DNA from: Labia minor
Taxonomy: Eukaryota > Arthropoda > Insecta > Dermaptera > Spongiphoridae
Length of the DNA: 64,000 nucleotides
Direction of reading: 5' to 3'
Assembly: GCA_963082975.1 (NCBI GenBank)
Contig: OY720350.1
Span: forward strand, 2,627,001 to 2,691,000
In this document: positions 45,034 through 64,000 of the stretch, in pieces
Layout: every line of letters begins with the position of its first letter
Position numbering within the stretch: position 1 is the first letter of the stretch
The notes under the pieces: generated by a model
What the model was told of the DNA's origin: nothing
Database searches by the model: none
What the model saw: the letters and a program-made list of their open reading frames with translations, nothing else
Position numbers and translations under genes: made by a program

Positions 45034-46452
45034 TGTTTTTTTCTTTAATAGATATTTCAACAATAAAATTAATTTATCAAGAAGCACCTACTGTACTTGC
45101 TGACAAATCATTTTATAAAGTATCAACACAATCGGATCTTATTTTAAATTGTAAAATTACAGGAAATCCAAAACCGATGATTAAATGGACAAAAAATGGT
45201 GTATTAATTGAATTTAATGAACATATAACAGTGAGTTAATTTTTATTGAAATGTCATAATTATTATATTATTATTACCACACACATTTTACTATAAAAGT
45301 TTAACAAAATTCTTTCTTGTGTTCTGTTATTGGTTATTAAAATCAATTTAAATTAAATTCATTTATTCAGTTGAATGAGAATAATTCATTAGTGATAAAA
45401 TCAGCTGATATTAAAGATAGTGGAGAATATTCTTGTAGTGCATTTAATGAATTTGGATCAGGTGATGCTTTTATGCAAGTGAAAATTGGTCAATCACCAA
45501 AACCATTACATTTCCATCAAGGTATTATTATATTATATTTCTCTTCTTTTAGTTTTATTCTACTTTTATTCTATCTATAAATACTGTAAATATTGTAAAT
45601 ATTGTAAATATATGTCAATTGTAGAATTTGTAAAATTAATATCGAATCGTAATATCATTTATAACATTTTTTCTTTTTCTTTTTCTATTCTATATATTCA
45701 AGATGTTTATATAAAACTTGGTGAAGAAGGATGGATTGATTGTTTAGCAAAGGAAGGTGATCCTCCAGTAAAATTATCCTGGTCACGTGAAAATGGTAAA
45801 ACATTTTCCAAAGATCATATCACCACCGATGATGCACATGGACTACTTATTATTCAAGGTATATACGATACGAGGGTGGGAGTGAAAAGTTTCCGGCCTG
45901 ACCAAGAAAAACGATGTTTTTTTTGTTTTTTTTTTTTGCTTTATTTTTCAACATTCAAGTTAGCTGAACGTGTACGAAATATTTTGCACAAGCCTTTGAA
46001 CAAGGAAAGCTGTGTGCAACGTGGGTGCCGCGTTTGCTAACGTTTAACCAAAAACTGCTTCGAAAAACCATTTCAACCGCTGTAGGCGTAATCCAAACGA
46101 ATTTTCTCGTCGATTCATAACTGTTGATGGGACTTAAATTAAATTAAATTAAATTAATTAACTAAATTCGAACACCGTTATAAGAAATGTATCAGTGTTG
46201 ATGGAGATTTTGTTAAAAAATAAAGCAAAAAAATTAAAAACATCGTTTTTCTTGATCAGGCCGGAAACTTTTCACTTTTTACCTTCGTAAATACACTTTT
46301 GTATATTTACATATATTATCTTATATTATATATATATACAAAAGTAGTAAACATATTCATATATAATTATAATATTTATAATATAGATAGATAGATAGAT
46401 AGAAATATCTTAATATATTATATTATAATTACACAAAAATGGAAAAAAGTAA

Positions 46453-46483
<31 letters not shown>

Positions 46484-46522
46484 GCAAAAAAGCAAAATTG
46501 TAGATACCAATAAGACAATTTT

Positions 46523-46560
<38 letters not shown>

Positions 46561-49500
46561 CAATTAATTAATTAATTAATAAAATTGAAATGTTTCTCTA
46601 TTTAGATGCAACATTAGAAGAAGCTGGGAAATATATTTGTTCATTGGATAATGAATACGGCCATTCTGAATTGAATGTCAATGTTATTATAACTGGAGCA
46701 GGTTCGTTTATAGTATATTTTGAATTTTACAAAAAATTTATTTATTTATTAATATATTATATGGATTGTTTTTATAGTGAGTCCAATGTTAGATCCAGCA
46801 TCGATTATGTCTAATCCGACTGGGAAATTAACGACATTATCTGGCCATTCGGTACGATTGCCTTGTCGTATTCTCCTTGGGCGACCTGAGCCTTCGATTT
46901 CTTGGTTACGCGATGGTGAATTACTTGAGAAATCACAAATGGATCATGAAGGAATTTATATTTCCAATGAAAATAATCAAAATACATTGATCATTGGCGC
47001 TATTGATTCTGACATACATTCAGGGACATACGAATGTGTGGCAAGGAATCCACTCGGTGCAGCAAGTCACGCCATTACCCTTGTTATTTTGGGTAATTTT
47101 GAGTTCATTCATTAGTTCATTAAAAACAAACTACTAATACAAAATGACTGATAACAACATAGGTGTACCAACATAACAAAAAAAAAAATATATATATTAT
47201 AGGGTATTACTTAATAAAATAAATACTTAACAAACAAAATTAACAATCTTTAATCGTAAATAAACATAAACATAAAACGTCCGTTACATTCATCTGCAAA
47301 CATAAGAGTGGACTGGAACATAAAACATCCACCGGTCGCAAGTATCGTAACATAGAGGTCGCTTACATAGCCTTCACACAGCGCCCTCACTTAACTTAAA
47401 CTTTAAATGAAATAATTTAAATTATTTCCTACAGTTTCGGCCTTCCTGACATCAATCGACCTCGATTGTTTATTAATCACTTAAAATAAAAGTTTAACAA
47501 ATAAAAACATTATAATACTTATTACTTTAGATTCACAATTCATACACAATTCATTACAATATCACTTTTTTTATTATTTACTTAATTAGATGAATTACAA
47601 ATCATGGAAATCATTGAAGAAGTTCACGCTCTGACAAGTTCACTTCAGAATTAATATTTCCAGGCAACCAAGGCCTGATTCTAGAAACATCATAATTACC
47701 CTTAAATGGGACTCGCGAATGCTGAAATCCCTGTATGTCTCTCAATAAGTACCTATCATTTGGTAAAACGGTTTCCTTAATTGTATCTTCTTTAAATTTT
47801 TTCTTTTTCTTTTTCACTTGAATAATATCATTTTGTAATTGTTCGTCGAGTTTAATTAAATTATTATATTGTTCATTTAACTTGTCACTATTTACTTTCA
47901 ATTTATCATAAATTTTATTTAAAGATTGAGTTTCTTTCATTATTTTGTTTTTACCATCTTGTAATTCTTTTAATTTTTCTAAAATAATTTCATTTTCTTT
48001 TTTTAAAATATTTATTGAATCTTCTAATTCTTCAATAGTATTTTTATTAATAAATAAATATTTTTGAAGTAATACATTTTTCATCATAATAATTTCATTT
48101 TCTATACATTTTTTGGAATTAAAATTTTTCGATAAACAATCTAATTTAGTTTTATATTGAGCGGACATACCAGGATTTACGACATAATTTAAATCTTTAC
48201 CTTCAAATAAATCTTGATCTATTAATAACAATTCAGCTACTGAGGTGGACTCGTCAGTGTTCCCTTCTTCTATTTTTTTAGATATTTTCAATTGGCCATT
48301 AAATTCTACTTTCACTCCTGGAGAAAATATAAAGTTTCTTCCTAAAAGCAAATCATGACTCATAGTGTGATCTGGAACTACATGAAACAGAATTGAGAAC
48401 AATTGATTATTTATATAACATTTAGTTTCAAAAATACATAAAATTTTCAATGTCGAAGAATTAATTCCAATAAATTTTTTTGAATCTAAATATGGTTTTC
48501 TTAATGAACTAGGCACCAAATAAGATTTGATGATATTAATAGGGCTACCCGTATCAATCATTCCATTTGCTTTTACCGACCTTGAGCCATTTTCATAAAT
48601 AAGTTTAGTTTCCACGTCGCATTCGGTTTTTGTATCCACTAAATACGTAGATGAAGGTGTAGATGTTGAAGATTTGTTTTCTTCCCTCCTATACATTGGT
48701 TTTGATGAACAATTTTGGCTTATGTGCCCCATAACTCCGCATGTAAAACATGAACCAGGGGCCCTTTTAGACTTCCAGCATTGAGAGACAAGGTGTTCAA
48801 TTTTATTGCAATTAAAACATCTCTTCTCCGCACTTTGAATGTTAACTGTTTTAATGGCACTGGGTGGATACTTTTTCTCGGGCTCATACTTCTTTGTTGT
48901 TTTTCGCTCCGAGTCTAATATTTCTTGGTAAATATTTAATTTTTCTTTAAATTCTCGGATATCTTTCGCTCCATAAAGAATAATTTTATTTGCCTTGGTG
49001 TCGGGAATACCCTCAATTATATATTGCATAAGGGATTTATTATCAATATTACCCTTCTCTGCAATTTCCTTCATAATAATAAAATATTCCCGCACTGATT
49101 CTTCCTTTCTCATAGTTCTTAAATTTAATTGCTTATGAATATCAGCAGGACTTACTTGTTTTTTGAATTCTTGAAGCAAGATTTCTTTCATAATCTTCCA
49201 AGAATTTATCTGCTTTTCAGAATTAATAAACCTTTTAGCAAGGCCCTCTAATTTCTTTTTTGCATAAACTTGCTTTTGCAAATCAGACCAATTAAATAAA
49301 ATGGCATTTTCCTCAAAATCTCGAATAAATTTTTCTATCGAGTAATCATTGGTGCCATTGAAAGGAGATATGGTATCCTCTATGTCTCTAAAATTGAAAG
49401 AAAAGTTATTATTAGAACTCTGAAAACTAACCTCCGATACCGTTTCGTGATATTGTGTTCTTTCCATTTCAGAGTCATAATGATTTTGTTGATTAAAATT

Positions 49501-52500
49501 TTCATTTTTATTTTCCCTCAGTTCTTCTATATTATCAAAATTCACCAAAGCAGACTGGATTCGAGTTGCCAGTTCTAGAGAGGTTCCATCTGTTTCGAGG
49601 GTTAATAAATAAGCACATGCTTTCAATTTTTCTTCAGAAAAAGAAGAAGCCATTTTTCCAACTGCCGTAATAAAGGTCTCCGAATCTTCTTCTATATCGT
49701 TGAATCCTTCAAATTTTAATATTTTCTTGCGGTTGAGCCTTGCATCGGATCCAAACACAATATTATTCAACACGTGCACTTCTTCTCTAGAAGCATCAAA
49801 AATCCTTTGTTTAATTCCAGGAAATGCTTCAAGCGTTGCCATAATAAATTGAAATATTTTATCTGCTTAATTCGTAAAATGTTGTTCTTAACCCCACACC
49901 TGAGATAATTATAGGGTATTACTTAATAAAATAAATACTTAACAAACAAAATTAACAATCTTTAATCGTAAATAAACATAAACATAAAACGTCCGTTACA
50001 TTCATCTGCAAACATAAGAGTGGACTGGAACATAAAACATCCACCGGTCGCAAGTATCGTAACATAGAGGTCGCTTACATAGCCTTCACACAGCGCCCTC
50101 ACTTAACTTAAACTTTAAATGAAATAATTTAAATTATTTCCTACAATATATATATATTACTTATTATATACCAACTCGTAATTAGAAATATATTTAGGGA
50201 AATTATTTTTTTTTTTTTTTTGTATTTTAGAGCCACCAACATTTATTGAATCTCAACAAAACCAATTAGAAAGAAGGGCAATTATAGGACAAAAAATTAT
50301 TATTCCTTGCCCTTCTCAAGGGCAACCTACACCACTTATTACATGGACTAAAGATCAATTGCCAATTGTATTTAATCAAAATATGTATGTACCATACTTT
50401 CACTTTTTATTTTCTATTCTTCTATTCTTATATAATATATATTATAATTAATTTAAAAATATTATAAAATCAAATGATATATTCACATTACTTACTTACC
50501 AGTACATTATTAGAAGATCAAAGTCTTCATTTATTAGCTCCAACAGATCGAGATAGCGGTTTATATCAATGTACAGCAACAAATGCAGCTGGTTCTGCAT
50601 CGCAACAAATGGCATTACTTGTACAAGGTTGGTTTTCATTTTATGTAGTTGATTGATTGAAAAAAAAAAAAACTTGTTGTTTTATGTTTAAAGGGCCACC
50701 AATCATTTCCTCTCCACATTCTAATAATTTAGCAGTGATATCTGGTCAAATGATAACGTTAACATGCATTGTGACTGGAGTGCCTGTACCAGAAGTCAAT
50801 TGGTTTCATAATGGAATACGATTACAATCAGGTGCTGGATTACAATTAATACAGTGGCCACATAATAATCAATATACACTTAGGTAAGTTATTATTATTA
50901 TTATTATTATTTAATTATTATTTAATTATATATAAAGGAATTAATAAGTAATAACTAAATAATAGAATAGAATAACTACGAGAGTTTCTAATTTCTATTT
51001 CTGGCTTAAAAATGAAAAATGAAATCTTAGTTTATGTAAGTAAGTAGTACCGTTTTGGAATTCACACACACACAAAAAAGACGTGCAAAGATATCGGAAT
51101 TATTTTTATTTTTACATGAAATCCTGTACCTTAATCTACTTTTCTACATAATTTCCGTCAATATTGAGGCACTTGTCATATAACGTGGCACCAGTTTTTG
51201 AATACCCCCCCCCCCCACACACACACATAAAATTCTGCCCCCTGACTTGTTAACCACGGTATCATAGCTGTTTTGACTTGGCATTGATTGTCTCATTACG
51301 AGGCAGAAATTCCACAAGCAATACTCCTTTGCTGTCCCAAAAAACTGTGCACATGATTCTCCGGGCAGAAATTCTTTGCTTAAGCTTCACTTTTTTTGCA
51401 AAGAATCAAAACTTAATTTTTTTTTTTTTTATTTCGAACCATTTTTAATTATGAGCAATCTCAAATATCTCATATAAGACGGTTACAATAATCAATCACA
51501 TTGGATCACCATCACCTGTGGCAATTTTATGTACTTGCCTTATCAGTTCAAAATACAGAATTGATGTTTTTTTCTTTTTTACCGACCGACGATAGTAAGG
51601 GAGGTATTGTTTTCATACCAAATTTCACATGTGGAGATTTTTACATATCTCCACGAATCATGCATTTTCTAAACAGAAAAAAGTATTTTTAGCATGATGT
51701 CTGTCCGTCCGTCTGTCCGTCCGTCTGTCCGTCCGTCTGTCCGTCCGTCTGTCCGTCCGTATAGATGTGTACAGCCTGAACGGCTCAACCGATTTTGATG
51801 AAATTTGGTAGATTTACTTAATGCATCACTGGGATGAATTGATCAACTTTTGGTGCAATTCCGGAAACCGGAAGTGGTAGTATTAGCGATCGACGATAGG
51901 AAGGAAAGGGCTATTTTCACACCAAAGGAGATTTTTTTATATATCACCACGAATCATGCACTTTGTATTGGTTTTATCCTCGAGAAAAATCTTATTTATT
52001 AGTTTTTTCTTGATTTAAAATTATATGACGTCATCTAGCCATTCATGACGTCACAGCCTGGTCTTGCATATATATTATAAATAAAATAAAATTAAAAATG
52101 TTTATATTTATTATTTATGTATCCATATCTGTTTTTTATTACATTAATAGATATATAAAATTATTTGAAATTGTTTCTGTAGCTGGAAATTAATTTATTT
52201 CAAACAGTCGGTCGGTTCGGACCTGGCCACAGGTCAACTTATTTTTCTTATCCTAGAATCAACGTCGACCAAGATTAGAATTTGTTATAAAATATTTTTA
52301 TTTTATTTATTCTATTAATATATATGAATATACATATTTCAAAGTTTTGGTTTTCAAATAATTTATTATATAGGTATAAATATATATATATATATATATA
52401 AATATATAAATGGAATTTTGTAAATAAAACCACATATCGATATTTGTTATTGTAAATTTATTCAAAAAAAAATACAAAAAATACACAACGTTTCGATTGC

Positions 52501-56040: not shown

Positions 56041-59000
56041 TTCTTTGGATGTCATAGAAAAAACGACATTTTTCATTAAGATTTTAGAGAAAAAGCTACT
56101 TTTTTAAATAGAAATATAAAATTTATGAATTATATATCATTCTTATTTATTCCTTATTCTAAACACGAATCAATTGAAATTTCATCGATATCTCAATTAT
56201 TTTCGTGGATTTCATAGAAAAAACGACTTTTTTCATTAAGATTTTAGCGACAAAGCTACTTTTTTAAATAGAAATATAAAATTGATGAATTATATATCAT
56301 TCTTATTTATTTCTTATTCTAAACTCGAATAAATTCAAATTTCATCCAAATCTCAATTATTTTCGTGGATTTCATAGAAAAAACGACTTTTTTCATTAAG
56401 ATTTTAGCGACAAAGCTACTTTTTTAAATAGAAATATAAAATTGATGAATTATATATGATTCTTATTTCTTTCTTATTCTAAACTCGAATAAATTCAAAT
56501 TTCATCCAAATCTCAATTATTTTCGTGGAAATTTCATAGAAAAAACGACTTTTTTCATTAAGATTTAAGCGACAAAGCTACTTTTTTAAATAGAAATATA
56601 AAATTGATGAATTATATATGATTCTTATTTATTTCTTATTCTAAACTTGAATAAATTCAAATTTCATCCAAATCTCAATTATTTTCGTGGAAATTTCATA
56701 GAAAAAACGACTTTTTTCATTAAGATTTTAGCGACAAAGCTACTTTTTTAAATAGAAATATAAAATTGATGAATTATATATGATTCTTATTTCTTTCTTA
56801 TTCTAAACTCGAATAAATTCAAATTTCATCCAAATCTCAATTATTTTCGTGGAAATTTCATAGAAAAAACGACTTTTTTCATTAAGATTTTAGCGACAAA
56901 GCTACTTTTTTAAATAGAAATATAAAATTGATGAATTATATATGATTCTTATTTCTTTCTTATTCTAAACTCGAATAAATTCAAATTTCATCCAAATCTC
57001 AATTATTTTCGTGGAAATTTCATAGAAAAAACGACTTTTTTCATTAAGATTTTAGCGACAAAGCTACTTTTTTAAATAGAAATATAAAATTGATGAATTA
57101 TATATGATTCTTATTTATTTCTTATTCTAAACTCGAATAAATTCAAATTTCATCCAAATCTCAATTATTTTCGTGGAAATTTCATAGAAAAAACGACTTT
57201 TTTCATTAAGATTTTAGCGACAAAGCTACTTTTTTAAATAGAAATATAAAATTGATGAATTATATATGATTCTTATTTATTTCTTATTCTAAACTCGAAT
57301 AAATTCAAATTTCATCCAAATCTCAATTATTTTCGTGGAAATTTCATAGAAAAAACGACTTTTTTCATTAAGATTTTAGCGACAAAGCTACTTTTTTAAA
57401 TAGAAATATAAAATTGATGAATTATATATGATTCTTATTTCTTTCTTATTCTAAACTCGAATAAATTCAAATTTCATCCAAATCTCAATTATTTTCGTGG
57501 ATTTCATAGAAAAAACGACTTTTTTCATTAAGATTTTAGCGACAAAGCTACTTTTTTAAATAGAAATATAAAATTGATGAATTATATATGATTCTTATTT
57601 CTTTCTTATTCTAAACTCGAATAAATTCAAATTTCATCCAAATCTCAATTATTTTCGTGGAAATTTCATAGAAAAAACGACTTTTTTCATTAAGATTTAA
57701 GCGACAAAGCTACTTTTTTAAATAGAAATATAAAATTGATGAATTATATATGATTCTTATTTATTTCTTATTCTAAACTTGAATAAATTCAAATTTCATC
57801 CAAATCTCAATTATTTTCGTGGAAATTTCATAGAAAAAACGACTTTTTTCATTAAGATTTTAGCGACAAAGCTACTTTTTTAAATAGAAATATAAAATTG
57901 ATGAATTATATATGATTCTTATTTCTTTCTTATTCTAAACTCGAATAAATTCAAATTTCATCCAAATCTCAATTATTTTCGTGGAAATTTCATAGAAAAA
58001 ACGACTTTTTTCATTAAGATTTTAGCGACAAAGCTACTTTTTTAAATAGAAATATAAAATTGATGAATTATATATGATTCTTATTTCTTTCTTATTCTAA
58101 ACTCGAATAAATTCAAATTTCATCCAAATCTCAATTATTTTCGTGGAAATTTCATAGAAAAAACGACTTTTTTCATTAAGATTTTAGCGACAAAGCTACT
58201 TTTTTAAATAGAAATATAAAATTGATGAATTATATATGATTCTTATTTATTTCTTATTCTAAACTCGAATAAATTCAAATTTCATCCAAATCTCAATTAT
58301 TTTCGTGGAAATTTCATAGAAAAAACGACTTTTTTCATTAAGATTTTAGCGACAAAGCTACTTTTTTAAATAGAAATATAAAATTGATGAATTATATATG
58401 ATTCTTATTTCTTTCTTATTCTAAACTCGAATAAATTCAAATTTCATCCAAATCTCAATTATTTTCGTGGAAATTTCATAGAAAAAACGACTTTTTTCAT
58501 TAAGATTTTAGCGACAAAGCTACTTTTTTAAATAGAAATATAAAATTGATGAATTATATATGATTCTTATTTATTTCTTATTCTAAACTCGAATAAATTC
58601 AAATTTCATCCAAATCTCAATTATTTTCGTGGAAATTTCATAGAAAAAACGACTTTTTTCATTAAGATTTTAGCGACAAAGCTACTTTTTTAAATAGAAA
58701 TATAAAATTGATGAATTATATATGATTCTTATTTCTTTCTTATTCTAAACTCGAATAAATTCAAATTTCATCCAAATCTCAATTATTTTCGTGGAAATTT
58801 CATAGAAAAAACGACTTTTTTCATTAAGATTTTAGCGACAAAGCTACTTTTTTAAATAGAAATATAAAATTGATGAATTATATATGATTCTTATTTATTT
58901 CTTATTCTAAACTCGAATAAATTCAAATTTCATCCAAATCTCAATTATTTTCGTGGAAATTTCATAGAAAAAACGACTTTTTTCATTAAGATTTTAGCGA

Positions 59001-62000
59001 CAAAGCTACTTTTTTAAATAGAAATATAAAATTGATGAATTATATATGATTCTTATTTATTTCTTATTCTAAACTCGAATAAATTCAAATTTCATCCAAA
59101 TCTCAATTATTTTCGTGGAAATTTCATAGAAAAAACGACTTTTTTCATTAAGATTTTAGCGACAAAGCTACTTTTTTAAATAGAAATATAAAATTGATGA
59201 ATTATATATGATTCTTATTTCTTTCTTATTCTAAACTCGAATAAATTCAAATTTCATCCAAATCTCAATTATTTTCGTGGAAATTTCATAGAAAAAACGA
59301 CTTTTTTCATTAAGATTTTAGCGACAAAGCTACTTTTTTAAATAGAAATATAAAATTGATGAATTATATATGATTCTTATTTCTTTCTTATTCTAAACTC
59401 GAATAAATTCAAATTTCATCCAAATCTCAATTATTTTCGTGGAAATTTCATAGAAAAAACGACTTTTTTCATTAAGATTTTAGCGACAAAGCTACTTTTT
59501 TAAATAGAAATATAAAATTGATGAATTATATATGATTCTTATTTATTTCTTATTCTAAACTCGAATAAATTCAAATTTCATCCAAATCTCAATTATTTTC
59601 GTGGAAATTTCATAGAAAAAACGACTTTTTTCATTAAGATTTTAGCGACAAAGCTACTTTTTTAAATAGAAATATAAAATTGATGAATTATATATGATTC
59701 TTATTTCTTTCTTATTCTAAACTCGAATAAATTCAAATTTCATCCAAATCTCAATTATTTTCGTGGAAATTTCATAGAAAAAACGACTTTTTTCATTAAG
59801 ATTTTAGCGACAAAGCTACTTTTTTAAATAGAAATATAAAATTGATGAATTATATATGATTCTTATTTATTTCTTATTCTAAACTCGAATAAATTCAAAT
59901 TTCATCCAAATCTCAATTATTTTCGTGGAAATTTCATAGAAAAAACGACTTTTTTCATTAAGATTTTAGCGACAAAGCTACTTTTTTAAATAGAAATATA
60001 AAATTGATGAATTATATATGATTCTTATTTCTTTCTTATTCTAAACTCGAATAAATTCAAATTTCATCCAAATCTCAATTATTTTCGTGGAAATTTCATA
60101 GAAAAAACGACTTTTTTCATTAAGATTTTAGCGACAAAGCTACTTTTTTAAATAGAAATATAAAATTGATGAATTATATATGATTCTTATTTCTTTCTTA
60201 TTCTAAACTCGAATAAATTCAAATTTCATCCAAATCTCAATTATTTTCGTGGAAATTTCATAGAAAAAACGACTTTTTTCATTAAGATTTTAGCGACAAA
60301 GCTACTTTTTTAAATAGAAATATAAAATTGATGAATTATATATGATTCTTATTTATTTCTTATTCTAAACTCGAATAAATTCAAATTTCATCCAAATCTC
60401 AATTATTTTCGTGGAAATTTCATAGAAAAAACGACTTTTTTCATTAAGATTTTAGCGACAAAGCTACTTTTTTAAATAGAAATATAAAATTGATGAATTA
60501 TATATGATTCTTATTTCTTTCTTATTCTAAACTCGAATAAATTCAAATTTCATCCAAATCTCAATTATTTTCGTGGAAATTTCATAGAAAAAACGACTTT
60601 TTTCATTAAGATTTTAGCGACAAAGCTACTTTTTTAAATAGAAATATAAAATTGATGAATTATATATGATTCTTATTTATTTCTTATTCTAAACTCGAAT
60701 AAATTCAAATTTCATCCAAATCTCAATTATTTTCGTGGAAATTTCATAGAAAAAACGACTTTTTTCATTAAGATTTTAGCGACAAAGCTACTTTTTTAAA
60801 TAGAAATATAAAATTGATGAATTATATATGATTCTTATTTATTTCTTATTCTAAACTTGAATAAATTCAAATTTCATCCAAATCTCAATTATTTTCGTGG
60901 AAATTTCATAGAAAAAAACGACTTTTTTCATTAAGATTTTAGCGACAAAGCTACTTTTTTAAATAGAAATATAAAATTGATGAATTATATATGATTCTTA
61001 TTTATTTCTTATTCTAAACTTGAATAAATTCAAATTTCATCCAAATCTCAATTATTTTCGTGGAAATTTCATAGAAAAAACGACTTTTTTCATTAAGATT
61101 TAAGCGACAAAGCTACTTTTTTAAATAGAAATATAAAATTGATGAATTATATATGATTCTTATTTATTTCTTATTCTAAACTTGAATAAATTCAAATTTC
61201 ATCCAAATCTCAATTATTTTCGTGGAAATTTCATAGAAAAAACGACTTTTTTCATTAAGATTTTAGCGACAAAGCTACTTTTTTAAATAGAAATATAAAA
61301 TTGATGAATTATATATGATTCTTATTTATTTCTTATTCTAAACTCGAATAAATTCAAATTTCATCCAAATCTCAATTATTTTCGTGGAAATTTCATAGAA
61401 AAAACGACTTTTTTCATTAAGATTTTAGCGACAAAGCTACTTTTTTAAATAGAAATATAAAATTGATGAATTATATATCATTCTTATTTATTTCTTATTC
61501 TAAACTCGAATAAATTCAAATTTCATCCAAATCTCAATTATTTTCGTGGAAATTTCATAGAAAAAACGACTTTTTTCATTAAGATTTTAGCGACAAAGCT
61601 ACTTTTTTAAATAGAAATATAAAATTGATGAATTATATATCATTCTTATTTATTTCTTATTCTAAACTCGAATAAATTCAAATTTCATCCAAATCTCAAT
61701 TATTTTCGTGGAAATTTCATAGAAAAAAACGACTTTTTTCATTAAGATTTTAGCGACAAAGCTACTTTTTTAAATAGAAATATAAAATTGATGAATTATA
61801 TATCATTCTTATTTATTTCTTATTCTAAACTCGAATAAATTCAAATTTCATCCAAATCTCAATTATTTTCGTGGAAATTTCATAGAAAAAACGACTTTTT
61901 TCATTAAGATTTTAGCGACAAAGCTACTTTTTTAAATAGAAATATAAAATTGATTAATTATATATCATTCTTATTTCTTTCTTATTCTAAACTCGAATAA

Positions 62001-64000
62001 ATTCAAATTTCATCCAAATCTCAATTATTTTCGTGGAAATTTCATAGAAAAAACGACTTTTTTCATTAAGATTTTAGCGACAAAGCTACTTTTTTAAATA
62101 GAAATATAAAATTGATGAATTATATATGCATTCTTATTTATTTCTTATTCTAAACTCGAATAAATTCAAATTTCATCCAAATCTCAATTATTTTCGTGGA
62201 ATTTCATAGAAAAAACGACTTTTTTCATTAAGATTTTAGCGACAAAGCTACTTTTTTAAATAGAAATATAAAATTGATGAATTATATATGATTCTTATTT
62301 CTTTCTTATTCTAAACTCGAATAAATTCAAATTTCATCCAAATCTCAATTATTTTCGTGGAAATTTCATAGAAAAAACGACTTTTTTCATTAAGATTTAA
62401 GCGACAAAGCTACTTTTTTAAATAGAAATATAAAATTGATGAATTATATATGATTCTTATTTATTTCTTATTCTAAACTTGAATAAATTCAAATTTCATC
62501 CAAATCTCAATTATTTTCGTGGAAATTTCATAGAAAAAACGACTTTTTTCATTAAGATTTTAGCGACAAAGCTACTTTTTTAAATAGAAATATAAAATTG
62601 ATGAATTATATATGATTCTTATTTATTTCTTATTCTAAACTTGAATAAATTCAAATTTCATCCAAATCTCAATTATTTTCGTGGAAATTTCATAGAAAAA
62701 ACGACTTTTTTCATTAAGATTTTAGCGACAAAGCTACTTTTTTAAATAGAAATATAAAATTGATGAATTATATATGATTCTTATTTATTTCTTATTCTAA
62801 ACTCGAATAAATTCAAATTTCATCCAAATCTCAATTATTTTCGTGGAAATTTCATAGAAAAAAACGACTTTTTTCATTAAGATTTTAGCGACAAAGCTAC
62901 TTTTTTAAATAGAAATATAAAATTGATGAATTATATATGATTCTTATTTCTTTCTTATTCTAAACTCGAATAAATTCAAATTTCATCCAAATCTCAATTA
63001 TTTTCGTGGAAATTTCATAGAAAAAACGACTTTTTTCATTAAGATTTTAGCGACAAAGCTACTTTTTTAAATAGAAATATAAAATTGATGAATTATATAT
63101 GATTCTTATTTATTTCTTATTCTAAACTTGAATAAATTCAAATTTCATCCAAATCTCAATTATTTTCGTGGAAATTTCATAGAAAAAACGACTTTTTTCA
63201 TTAAGATTTTAGCGACAAAGCTACTTTTTTAAATAGAAATATAAAATTGATGAATTATATATGATTCTTATTTATTTCTTATTCTAAACTTGAATAAATT
63301 CAAATTTCATCCAAATCTCAATTATTTTCGTGGAAATTTCATAGAAAAAACGACTTTTTTCATTAAGATTTAAGCGACAAAGCTACTTTTTTAAATAGAA
63401 ATATAAAATTGATGAATTATATATGATTCTTATTTATTTCTTATTCTAAACTTGAATAAATTCAAATTTCATCCAAATCTCAATTATTTTCGTGGAAATT
63501 TCATAGAAAAAACGACTTTTTTCATTAAGATTTTAGCGACAAAGCTACTTTTTTAAATAGAAATATAAAATTGATGAATTATATATGATTCTTATTTATT
63601 TCTTATTCTAAACTCGAATAAATTCAAATTTCATCCAAATCTCAATTATTTTCGTGGAAATTTCATAGAAAAAACGACTTTTTTCATTAAGATTTTAGCG
63701 ACAAAGCTACTTTTTTAAATAGAAATATAAAATTGATGAATTATATATCATTCTTATTTATTTCTTATTCTAAACTCGAATAAATTCAAATTTCATCCAA
63801 ATCTCAATTATTTTCGTGGAAATTTCATAGAAAAAACGACTTTTTTCATTAAGATTTTAGCGACAAAGCTACTTTTTTAAATAGAAATATAAAATTGATG
63901 AATTATATATCATTCTTATTTATTTCTTATTCTAAACTCGAATAAATTCAAATTTCATCCAAATCTCAATTATTTTCGTGGAAATTTCATAGAAAAAACG
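56041..64000 (+). repeat. Satellite array, 162-bp unit, about 49 copies, continues past window
   Basis: The word GAAAAAACGAC recurs at 56057, 56217, 56377, 56539, 56701, 56863, 57025 and onward, giving a 160-162-bp period. Each unit contains TTTTAGCGACAAAGCTACTT, ATAGAAATATAAAATTGATG and TCCAAATCTCAATTATTTTC. Units differ at only a few positions (TTTCTTTC/TTTATTTC, AAACTCG/AAACTTG, TTTTAGCG/TTTAAGCG, TATGATTC/TATCATTC, GTGGATTTC/GTGGAAATTTC). The first unit (56041-56200) is clearly more diverged than interior units. There is no coding frame. The array lies inside the hemicentin-like gene if that gene continues to the right. Confidence 0.97.

Follow-up and report, generated by a model that had tools for sequence, protein, structure and literature searches.

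What kind of element keeps one open frame for Gag and protease while a coiled coil occupies the place of its polymerase? The question is raised by a long terminal repeat (LTR) element in a 64,000-nucleotide stretch of the genome of the dermapteran Labia minor (contig OY720350.1; G000:C9:2627001-2691000 in our coordinates), referred to here as the window. A preliminary description of the window had proposed either a non-autonomous class of retroelement that supplies its own Gag and protease and borrows its polymerase, or an early step toward a domesticated Gag gene. The first proposal is supported and the second is not, and neither foresaw the origin of the coiled coil in SMC4 or the captured inserts of related elements. 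Comparisons across the genome (604 Mb in 71 contigs) make it very probable, in our judgement, that we are dealing with a Ty3-type LTR retrotransposon which depends on a helper and has taken up part of the message of a host SMC4 gene.

Source of the coiled coil and probable route of its capture

The pol-less Gag-protease element with its coiled coil is real. The open reading frame list, Pfam and the motifs agree on an intact 743-codon frame with Gag, two zinc knuckles and a DTG protease, as first described. In Pfam the E value is 2e-7 for the two zinc-knuckle stretches, 2.4e-4 for Retrotrans_gag and 0.01 for RVP; neither Retrotrans_gag nor RVP reaches Pfam's own cut-off. What the frame lacks is seen by comparison with a full-length relative, L054 (G000:C1:24008000-24015800), whose 1426-codon frame has zinc knuckles, a protease region, RVT_1, RNase H and, from integrase, the zinc-binding and core domains, and whose LTR repeats begin 4983 bp from each other. 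Alignment of the window protein with L054 covers amino acids (aa) 1-573 (51% identity), breaks there, and resumes over aa 677-741 (55%). Between the two aligned stretches there is no reverse transcriptase (RT), RNase H or integrase core; a coiled coil foreign to L054 stands in their place. The tail, previously likened to the end of a Ty3-type Pol, can now be specified as the C-terminal end of integrase. The Gag, protease and integrase parts are homologous to a Gag-Pol in Ty3 order, the order of L054, and it is in this way that the element is assigned to the Ty3 type.

The coiled coil has a source in the same genome. When aa 525-743 were searched against the genome and all candidates scored (118/118), one long frame outside the family was found to hold the piece. 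This frame, at locus L058 (1572-5342, minus), is intact and uninterrupted over 1256 codons, has the Pfam domains SMC_N and SMC hinge, and finds its best solved match in SMC4 of condensin (9f5w chain B), with query residues 15-1253 aligned in one stretch (E 6e-255). Element bases 2044-2375 match L058 in frame at 98.5% DNA identity over 332 bp (E 6e-167). The piece corresponds to SMC4 residues 278-389, upstream of the hinge (580-696), that is, in the coiled-coil arm. Judged by this identity, the coiled coil is host SMC4 sequence. The genome rows for the piece number 37: one is the gene, four belong to an exon-split SMC4-like locus (C4:58712200-58720219), and 32 are places with the piece. Since the split locus is only 59-71% identical in parts, the donor is the uninterrupted SMC4 gene or its message. 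The absence of interruptions in the donor, set against the exon-split locus, is noted as possibly marking an old SMC4 retrogene.

The preliminary description had also considered that the coiled coil might be an ordinary part of a full-length element, which was seen in none of the 118 candidates. Sequence rich in Lys, Glu and Asn could arise in an AT-rich genome, and one could suppose that the coiled coil represents pol sequence that has decayed or is of low complexity, or that the piece passed from the element into the SMC4 gene. Either is scarcely conceivable given the 98.5% DNA identity over 332 bp and a gene that matches solved SMC4 over residues 15-1253 in a single stretch including the piece.

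A fragmentary relative, L059 (C1:72791800-72798800), appears to preserve an earlier state of the fusion. It matches SMC4 over 389 bp at 97.2%, compared with 332 bp in the window copy, and its SMC4 sequence runs into integrase at codons NKKLI. At this 3' join SMC4 and the L054 integrase agree at 13/16 bases, a count that is an approximation, L054 being only a relative of the parent. Such a join is, we infer, what a template switch at a short match would leave. In an alignment of the piece from 24 copies (the 23 full-length copies described below plus L036), the changes from SMC4 seen in L059 recur in 24/24 copies at piece position 149, in 23/24 at position 307 and in 22/24 at position 84, where the window copy is one of the two exceptions. 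At positions 118 and 248 L059 keeps the SMC4 base, and the base is changed in 24/24 and 23/24 copies. Because L059 and the family copies share changes from SMC4, one capture gave both, and the window type afterwards underwent further loss on the 3' side of the piece. On the 5' side, some 98 bp of the window copy are absent from L059, and the same gap is found in the copy at C1:20369052-20371907.

These observations are consistent with a model in which Gag particles took in host mRNA together with element RNA, and RT changed template to that mRNA and then returned to pol. The predicted product would be a Gag-protease-SMC4-integrase-tail polyprotein. The element would make its own Gag and protease, and would obtain RT and integrase from full-length relatives, for example of the L054 type. 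An alternative without an RNA step is recombination at the DNA level between a provirus and the SMC4 gene. In its favor, the SMC4 donor is uninterrupted, so the window family bears no sign of splicing; for the same reason, RNA-level capture of SMC4 itself is not proved. DNA-level capture nevertheless seems quite unlikely to us, considering the L059 join at a short match, the LTR ends that the fusion shares its multiplication as an LTR element, and the insert of a related family. The 831-aa frame of L060 carries a coiled-coil gene insert whose bases 17-277, 277-458, 452-609, 610-879 and 875-928 match five ordered stretches at 98-100%. At the donor locus (C9:47856368-47858749) these stretches lie 866, 225, 231 and 135 bp apart, and in 9 element copies they are joined without gaps. 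Being apart in the genome and joined in the elements, they look like spliced exons. The donor gene is unnamed, since no match for this coiled coil was found in the PDB; it may resemble Girdin or Hook.

Copies, selection and the helper

The expectation that many copies would share the coiled coil was borne out. A DNA search of the genome, in which 40/183 candidates were scored, gave 23 full-length copies as a lower bound, the window copy among them, with DNA identities of 97-98%, in addition to fragments. All 23 were retrieved for comparison and span the whole element, which therefore is neither a chance arrangement nor the single-copy internal deletion that had been held possible. The window copy has a direct repeat of 238 nucleotides, 100% identical, at 47196-47433 and 49908-50145, which comparison of insertions trims to an LTR of 236 bp with a 4-bp target duplication. 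The LTR opens with TG and ends with TA, not the usual CA. With LTRs trimmed to TGTAGG...CCTATA, pairs are identical in 18/23 copies; those of L004, L007, L051 and L053 differ, and the L040 pair, not measurable by the script, was entered as non-identical (untrimmed 238-bp repeats give 16/23 identical pairs). The 4-bp duplication is present in all copies except L046 and L053 (21/23). Its word is ATAT in 14 of the 21 and another in 7; the ATAT duplications are weak evidence because the insertion site is AT-rich. A search with the LTR, for which 40/195 candidates were scored, also returned six LTRs without a listed partner. Most copies are young.

A frame of 741-745 codons with the same two ends is kept in 18/23 full-length copies. 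Among these 18 intact copies the ratio of nonsynonymous to synonymous polymorphism (pN/pS; intervals in brackets) is 0.25 (0.14-0.43) for Gag, 0.26 (0.14-0.50) for zinc knuckles and protease, and 0.37 (0.10-2.06) for the integrase tail. By these ratios Gag and protease have been under purifying selection during the spread, in agreement with the proposal of a multi-copy, non-autonomous class with its own Gag and protease. Such selection would also suit a domesticated Gag gene in the making. That reading is highly improbable and was rejected, because the copies are dispersed, LTR-flanked and mostly young, with target duplications and mostly identical LTR pairs, and because a Gag that works for the element should itself be under selection among mobile copies. 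Domesticated Gag genes are single-copy and immobile and have lost their LTRs; by copy number and LTRs the window element is not one of them. A one-base Gag insertion common to L005 and L053 was considered as proof of movement after loss of Gag, and was dropped, given its position at six consecutive A and the different LTR subtypes of the two copies.

Most probably the SMC4 piece is cargo that the element tolerates. Its pN/pS is 0.52, with a wide interval (0.27-1.83), and the near-universal changes relative to SMC4, at five positions (too few for significance), all alter an amino acid. A variant of the same explanation holds that the piece is selected for oligomerization, chromatin tethering or spacing, and is kept in frame for that reason. 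A frame-shifting gap in the piece occurs in only 1/24 copies (L006; the gap in L044 is of 6 bases), and three of the five insert identities given below point to nuclear proteins. Amino-acid change in the piece relative to LTR and untranslated-region variation is 0.39 (0.20-0.67), a ratio to which we give no weight because synonymous variation in the piece is also low (0.019, versus 0.039 in Gag). Together with the pN/pS interval and the amino-acid changes above, the integrase tail downstream, which could keep the frame for other reasons, leaves selection of the piece unlikely.

An L054-type element is the likely supplier of RT and integrase, as judged from the ends of the two elements. Directly ahead of the 3' LTR, 72 bases agree with L054 at 70/72 (maximum of 46 in 200 composition shuffles), and the first 19 bases of the LTR agree at 19/19. 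Over the last 40 bases only 34/42 columns agree; the figures for the whole LTRs and for Gag DNA are 170/243 columns and 640/1093. The anticipated full-length relative with matching LTRs and Gag was thus found as far as the LTR start and the 3' end are concerned, and not for Gag, which is only 51% identical. Beyond L054, the coiled-coil and Gag searches gave nine further related loci with open frames of at least 1398 codons. Several results weigh against helper-dependent capture as we reconstruct it. The Gag search (120/512 candidates scored) found no autonomous element with a close Gag, the next-best Gag being 51% identical, and the LTR search (40/195 scored) found none with the same LTR. L054 is not the direct parent, and the match at the 3' join was judged against a relative only. 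Frames are shifted or shortened in 5/23 copies (L005, L006, L046, L048 and L053).

Other inserts, and the map of the window element

The Gag search also gave many related frames, including frames of 700-1450 codons. Ten relatives were examined (L054-L057 and L060-L065), a non-random set picked by frame length, with L061-L065 represented by their C-terminal parts only. L055 (912 aa), L056 (898 aa) and L057 (876 aa) are Ty3-type elements with a shortened pol, an open frame and identical LTR repeats; no foreign piece was recognized in their shortened pol. In L063 (frame 897) Pfam identifies the central domain of TFIIS (E 2.6e-30); the best solved match is PHD finger protein 3 (PHF3), and the likely source of this PHF3-like insert is at C1:106931640 (98% over 193 aa, reported with one internal stop). 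The acidic insert of L064 (frame 915) has a likely source at C1:117798793-117799524 (96% over aa 7-250), and an acidic insert is also found in L065. In the stretches read, the flanks of the differing inserts of L060, L063 and L064 are 98.3-100% identical in DNA, and by this measure the three share one backbone; the 3' join of L063 lies past the stop of L060, and L063 is without the integrase tail. L061 and L062, of another family, have a NASP-like segment (solved NASP, E 1.6e-6) that Pfam leaves unnamed. The segment is found at 92-100% in 74/102 rows, 73 of them over all 152 residues, and has several candidate host genes. Four NASP-like segments stand in tandem at 2121-bp spacing (G000:C5:65615670-65622488), and two PHF3-like segments 3631 bp apart (G000:C6:68801784-68806110), as if elements shared LTRs.

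Our tally of captures is five, of which two are firm (SMC4 and the five-stretch coiled coil) and three likely (the PHF3-like, acidic and NASP-like inserts). Host-gene capture by these elements thus looks recurrent, with donors at 98-100% for two captures and likely donors at 96-98% for two more. Several captures with near-identical donors, an earlier join and a spliced-looking insert make the process directly testable in this genome: the steps of capture, the loss of pol, the dependence on a helper and the fate of the cargo. They also suggest that elements can persist stably as Gag-protease satellites with the pol region free for replacement, and that this could be a route by which retroelements build new chimeric proteins. 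One may go further and picture a pol-less Gag-protease lineage as a standing vehicle, its pol slot repeatedly refilled with spliced host pieces, several of them nuclear (condensin SMC4, the NASP-like histone chaperone, the PHF3-like factor), with at least some cargo kept as helpful, for example for chromatin tethering of the complexes. We regard this extension as unlikely.

The features of the window element are collected in Table 1. TCAGGTGTGGGGTT, downstream of the 5' LTR, presumably pairs with a tRNA and is a putative primer-binding site. Just ahead of the 3' LTR, GTCAGGAAGGCCGAA (window 47434-47450, minus) is unlike a plain polypurine tract and is common to the same place in L054-L057; we take it to resemble the 5' end of a leucine tRNA. 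No Rfam family reached the gathering threshold in 46500-51000.

Table 1. Features of the element, in window positions.
Feature	Position	Strand	Basis
Element	47198-50145	minus	bounds from comparing insertions
Target-site duplication ATAT, 5' side	50146..50149	.	weak alone, AT-rich site
5' LTR, 236 bp, TGTAGG...CCTATA	49910..50145	minus	repeat and insertion comparison
Primer-binding-site-like TCAGGTGTGGGGTT	49890..49903	minus	identical 14 bases in relative L056
Single 743-codon frame, intact	47611..49842	minus	open reading frame list
Gag, aa 1-335	48838..49842	minus	Pfam and alignment to L054; pN/pS 0.25
Two CCHC zinc knuckles, starting at aa 342 and aa 365	48700..48819	minus	Pfam and motif
Retroviral-type protease, DTGSP at aa 430	48313..48573	minus	weak RVP in Pfam, L054 alignment, motif
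Pre-RT linker of pol	48103..48312	minus	alignable to L054 as far as aa 573
Captured SMC4 coiled-coil piece, 332 bp, codons 581-690, SMC4 frame	47771..48102	minus	98.5% DNA identity to L058
Integrase C-terminal tail, VLPNDRY from aa 692	47614..47770	minus	L054 alignment and motif
72-bp block ahead of 3' LTR	47434..47505	minus	70/72 identical to full-length relative L054
3' LTR, same sequence as 5' LTR	47198..47433	minus	repeat and insertion comparison
Target-site duplication ATAT, 3' side	47194..47197	.	insertion comparison

Two short frames at window 45486-46040 and 46777-47115 (plus) look by eye like immunoglobulin-domain exons; with such frames in the plus strand nearby, the element may be intronic, its orientation opposite to that of the gene. 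Window 56052-64000 consists of a young satellite, 49 tandem copies of a 162-bp unit with 98% matches, which runs off the window end.

Comparison with known systems

Within the open-access literature, searched by titles and abstract openings and with subscription journals mostly outside it, no description was found of SMC4 capture by a retroelement, or of animal Gag-protease elements capturing host genes in series. Accounts of how LTR elements capture host genes usually draw on a few cases, among them maize Bs1, an element without RT, and the retroviruses with captured oncogenes. In acute transforming retroviruses Gag is fused in frame to a host piece, pol is lost and a helper is needed. The window element is like them in the in-frame joining of Gag to a host piece, the loss of pol and, probably, the need for a helper; unlike them, it is a Ty3-type element of the germline in which no env was seen, and nothing indicates that its cargo acts on cell growth.

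Bs1 carries host pieces of a plasma-membrane ATPase, a xylan endohydrolase and a beta-1,3-glucanase in a chimeric frame (PMC13317346, PMC7264820). Template switching is treated in the same two papers, and the field has been reviewed (PMC6431247). Like Bs1, the window element is an LTR element with host coding sequence inside a chimeric frame and the donor gene in the genome. Apart from host kingdom and cargo, it differs in its family of 23 or more young full-length copies, in the earlier join that L059 preserves, and in siblings that carry other cargo on a common backbone.

TR-GAG elements of plants are described as non-autonomous, with LTRs and a single Gag frame, and one was shown to transpose (PMC8704663). 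The window element shares the two LTRs, the single frame and the lack of autonomy; whereas TR-GAG elements have Gag only, its frame adds a protease, the SMC4 piece and the integrase tail. Crocodilian endogenous retroviruses captured host mRNA for KIT-ligand and nectin3, of which nectin3 replaced env and KIT-ligand cost no domain (PMC4299795). There, as here, host sequence was captured by an LTR element and then multiplied; in the window element, by contrast, it is pol that gave way, to an internal gene fragment joined in frame. The element thus apparently belongs to a kind already known, the helper-dependent, host-gene-transducing LTR retrotransposons, represented here by a form that is young, multi-copy and apparently recurrent in one genome.

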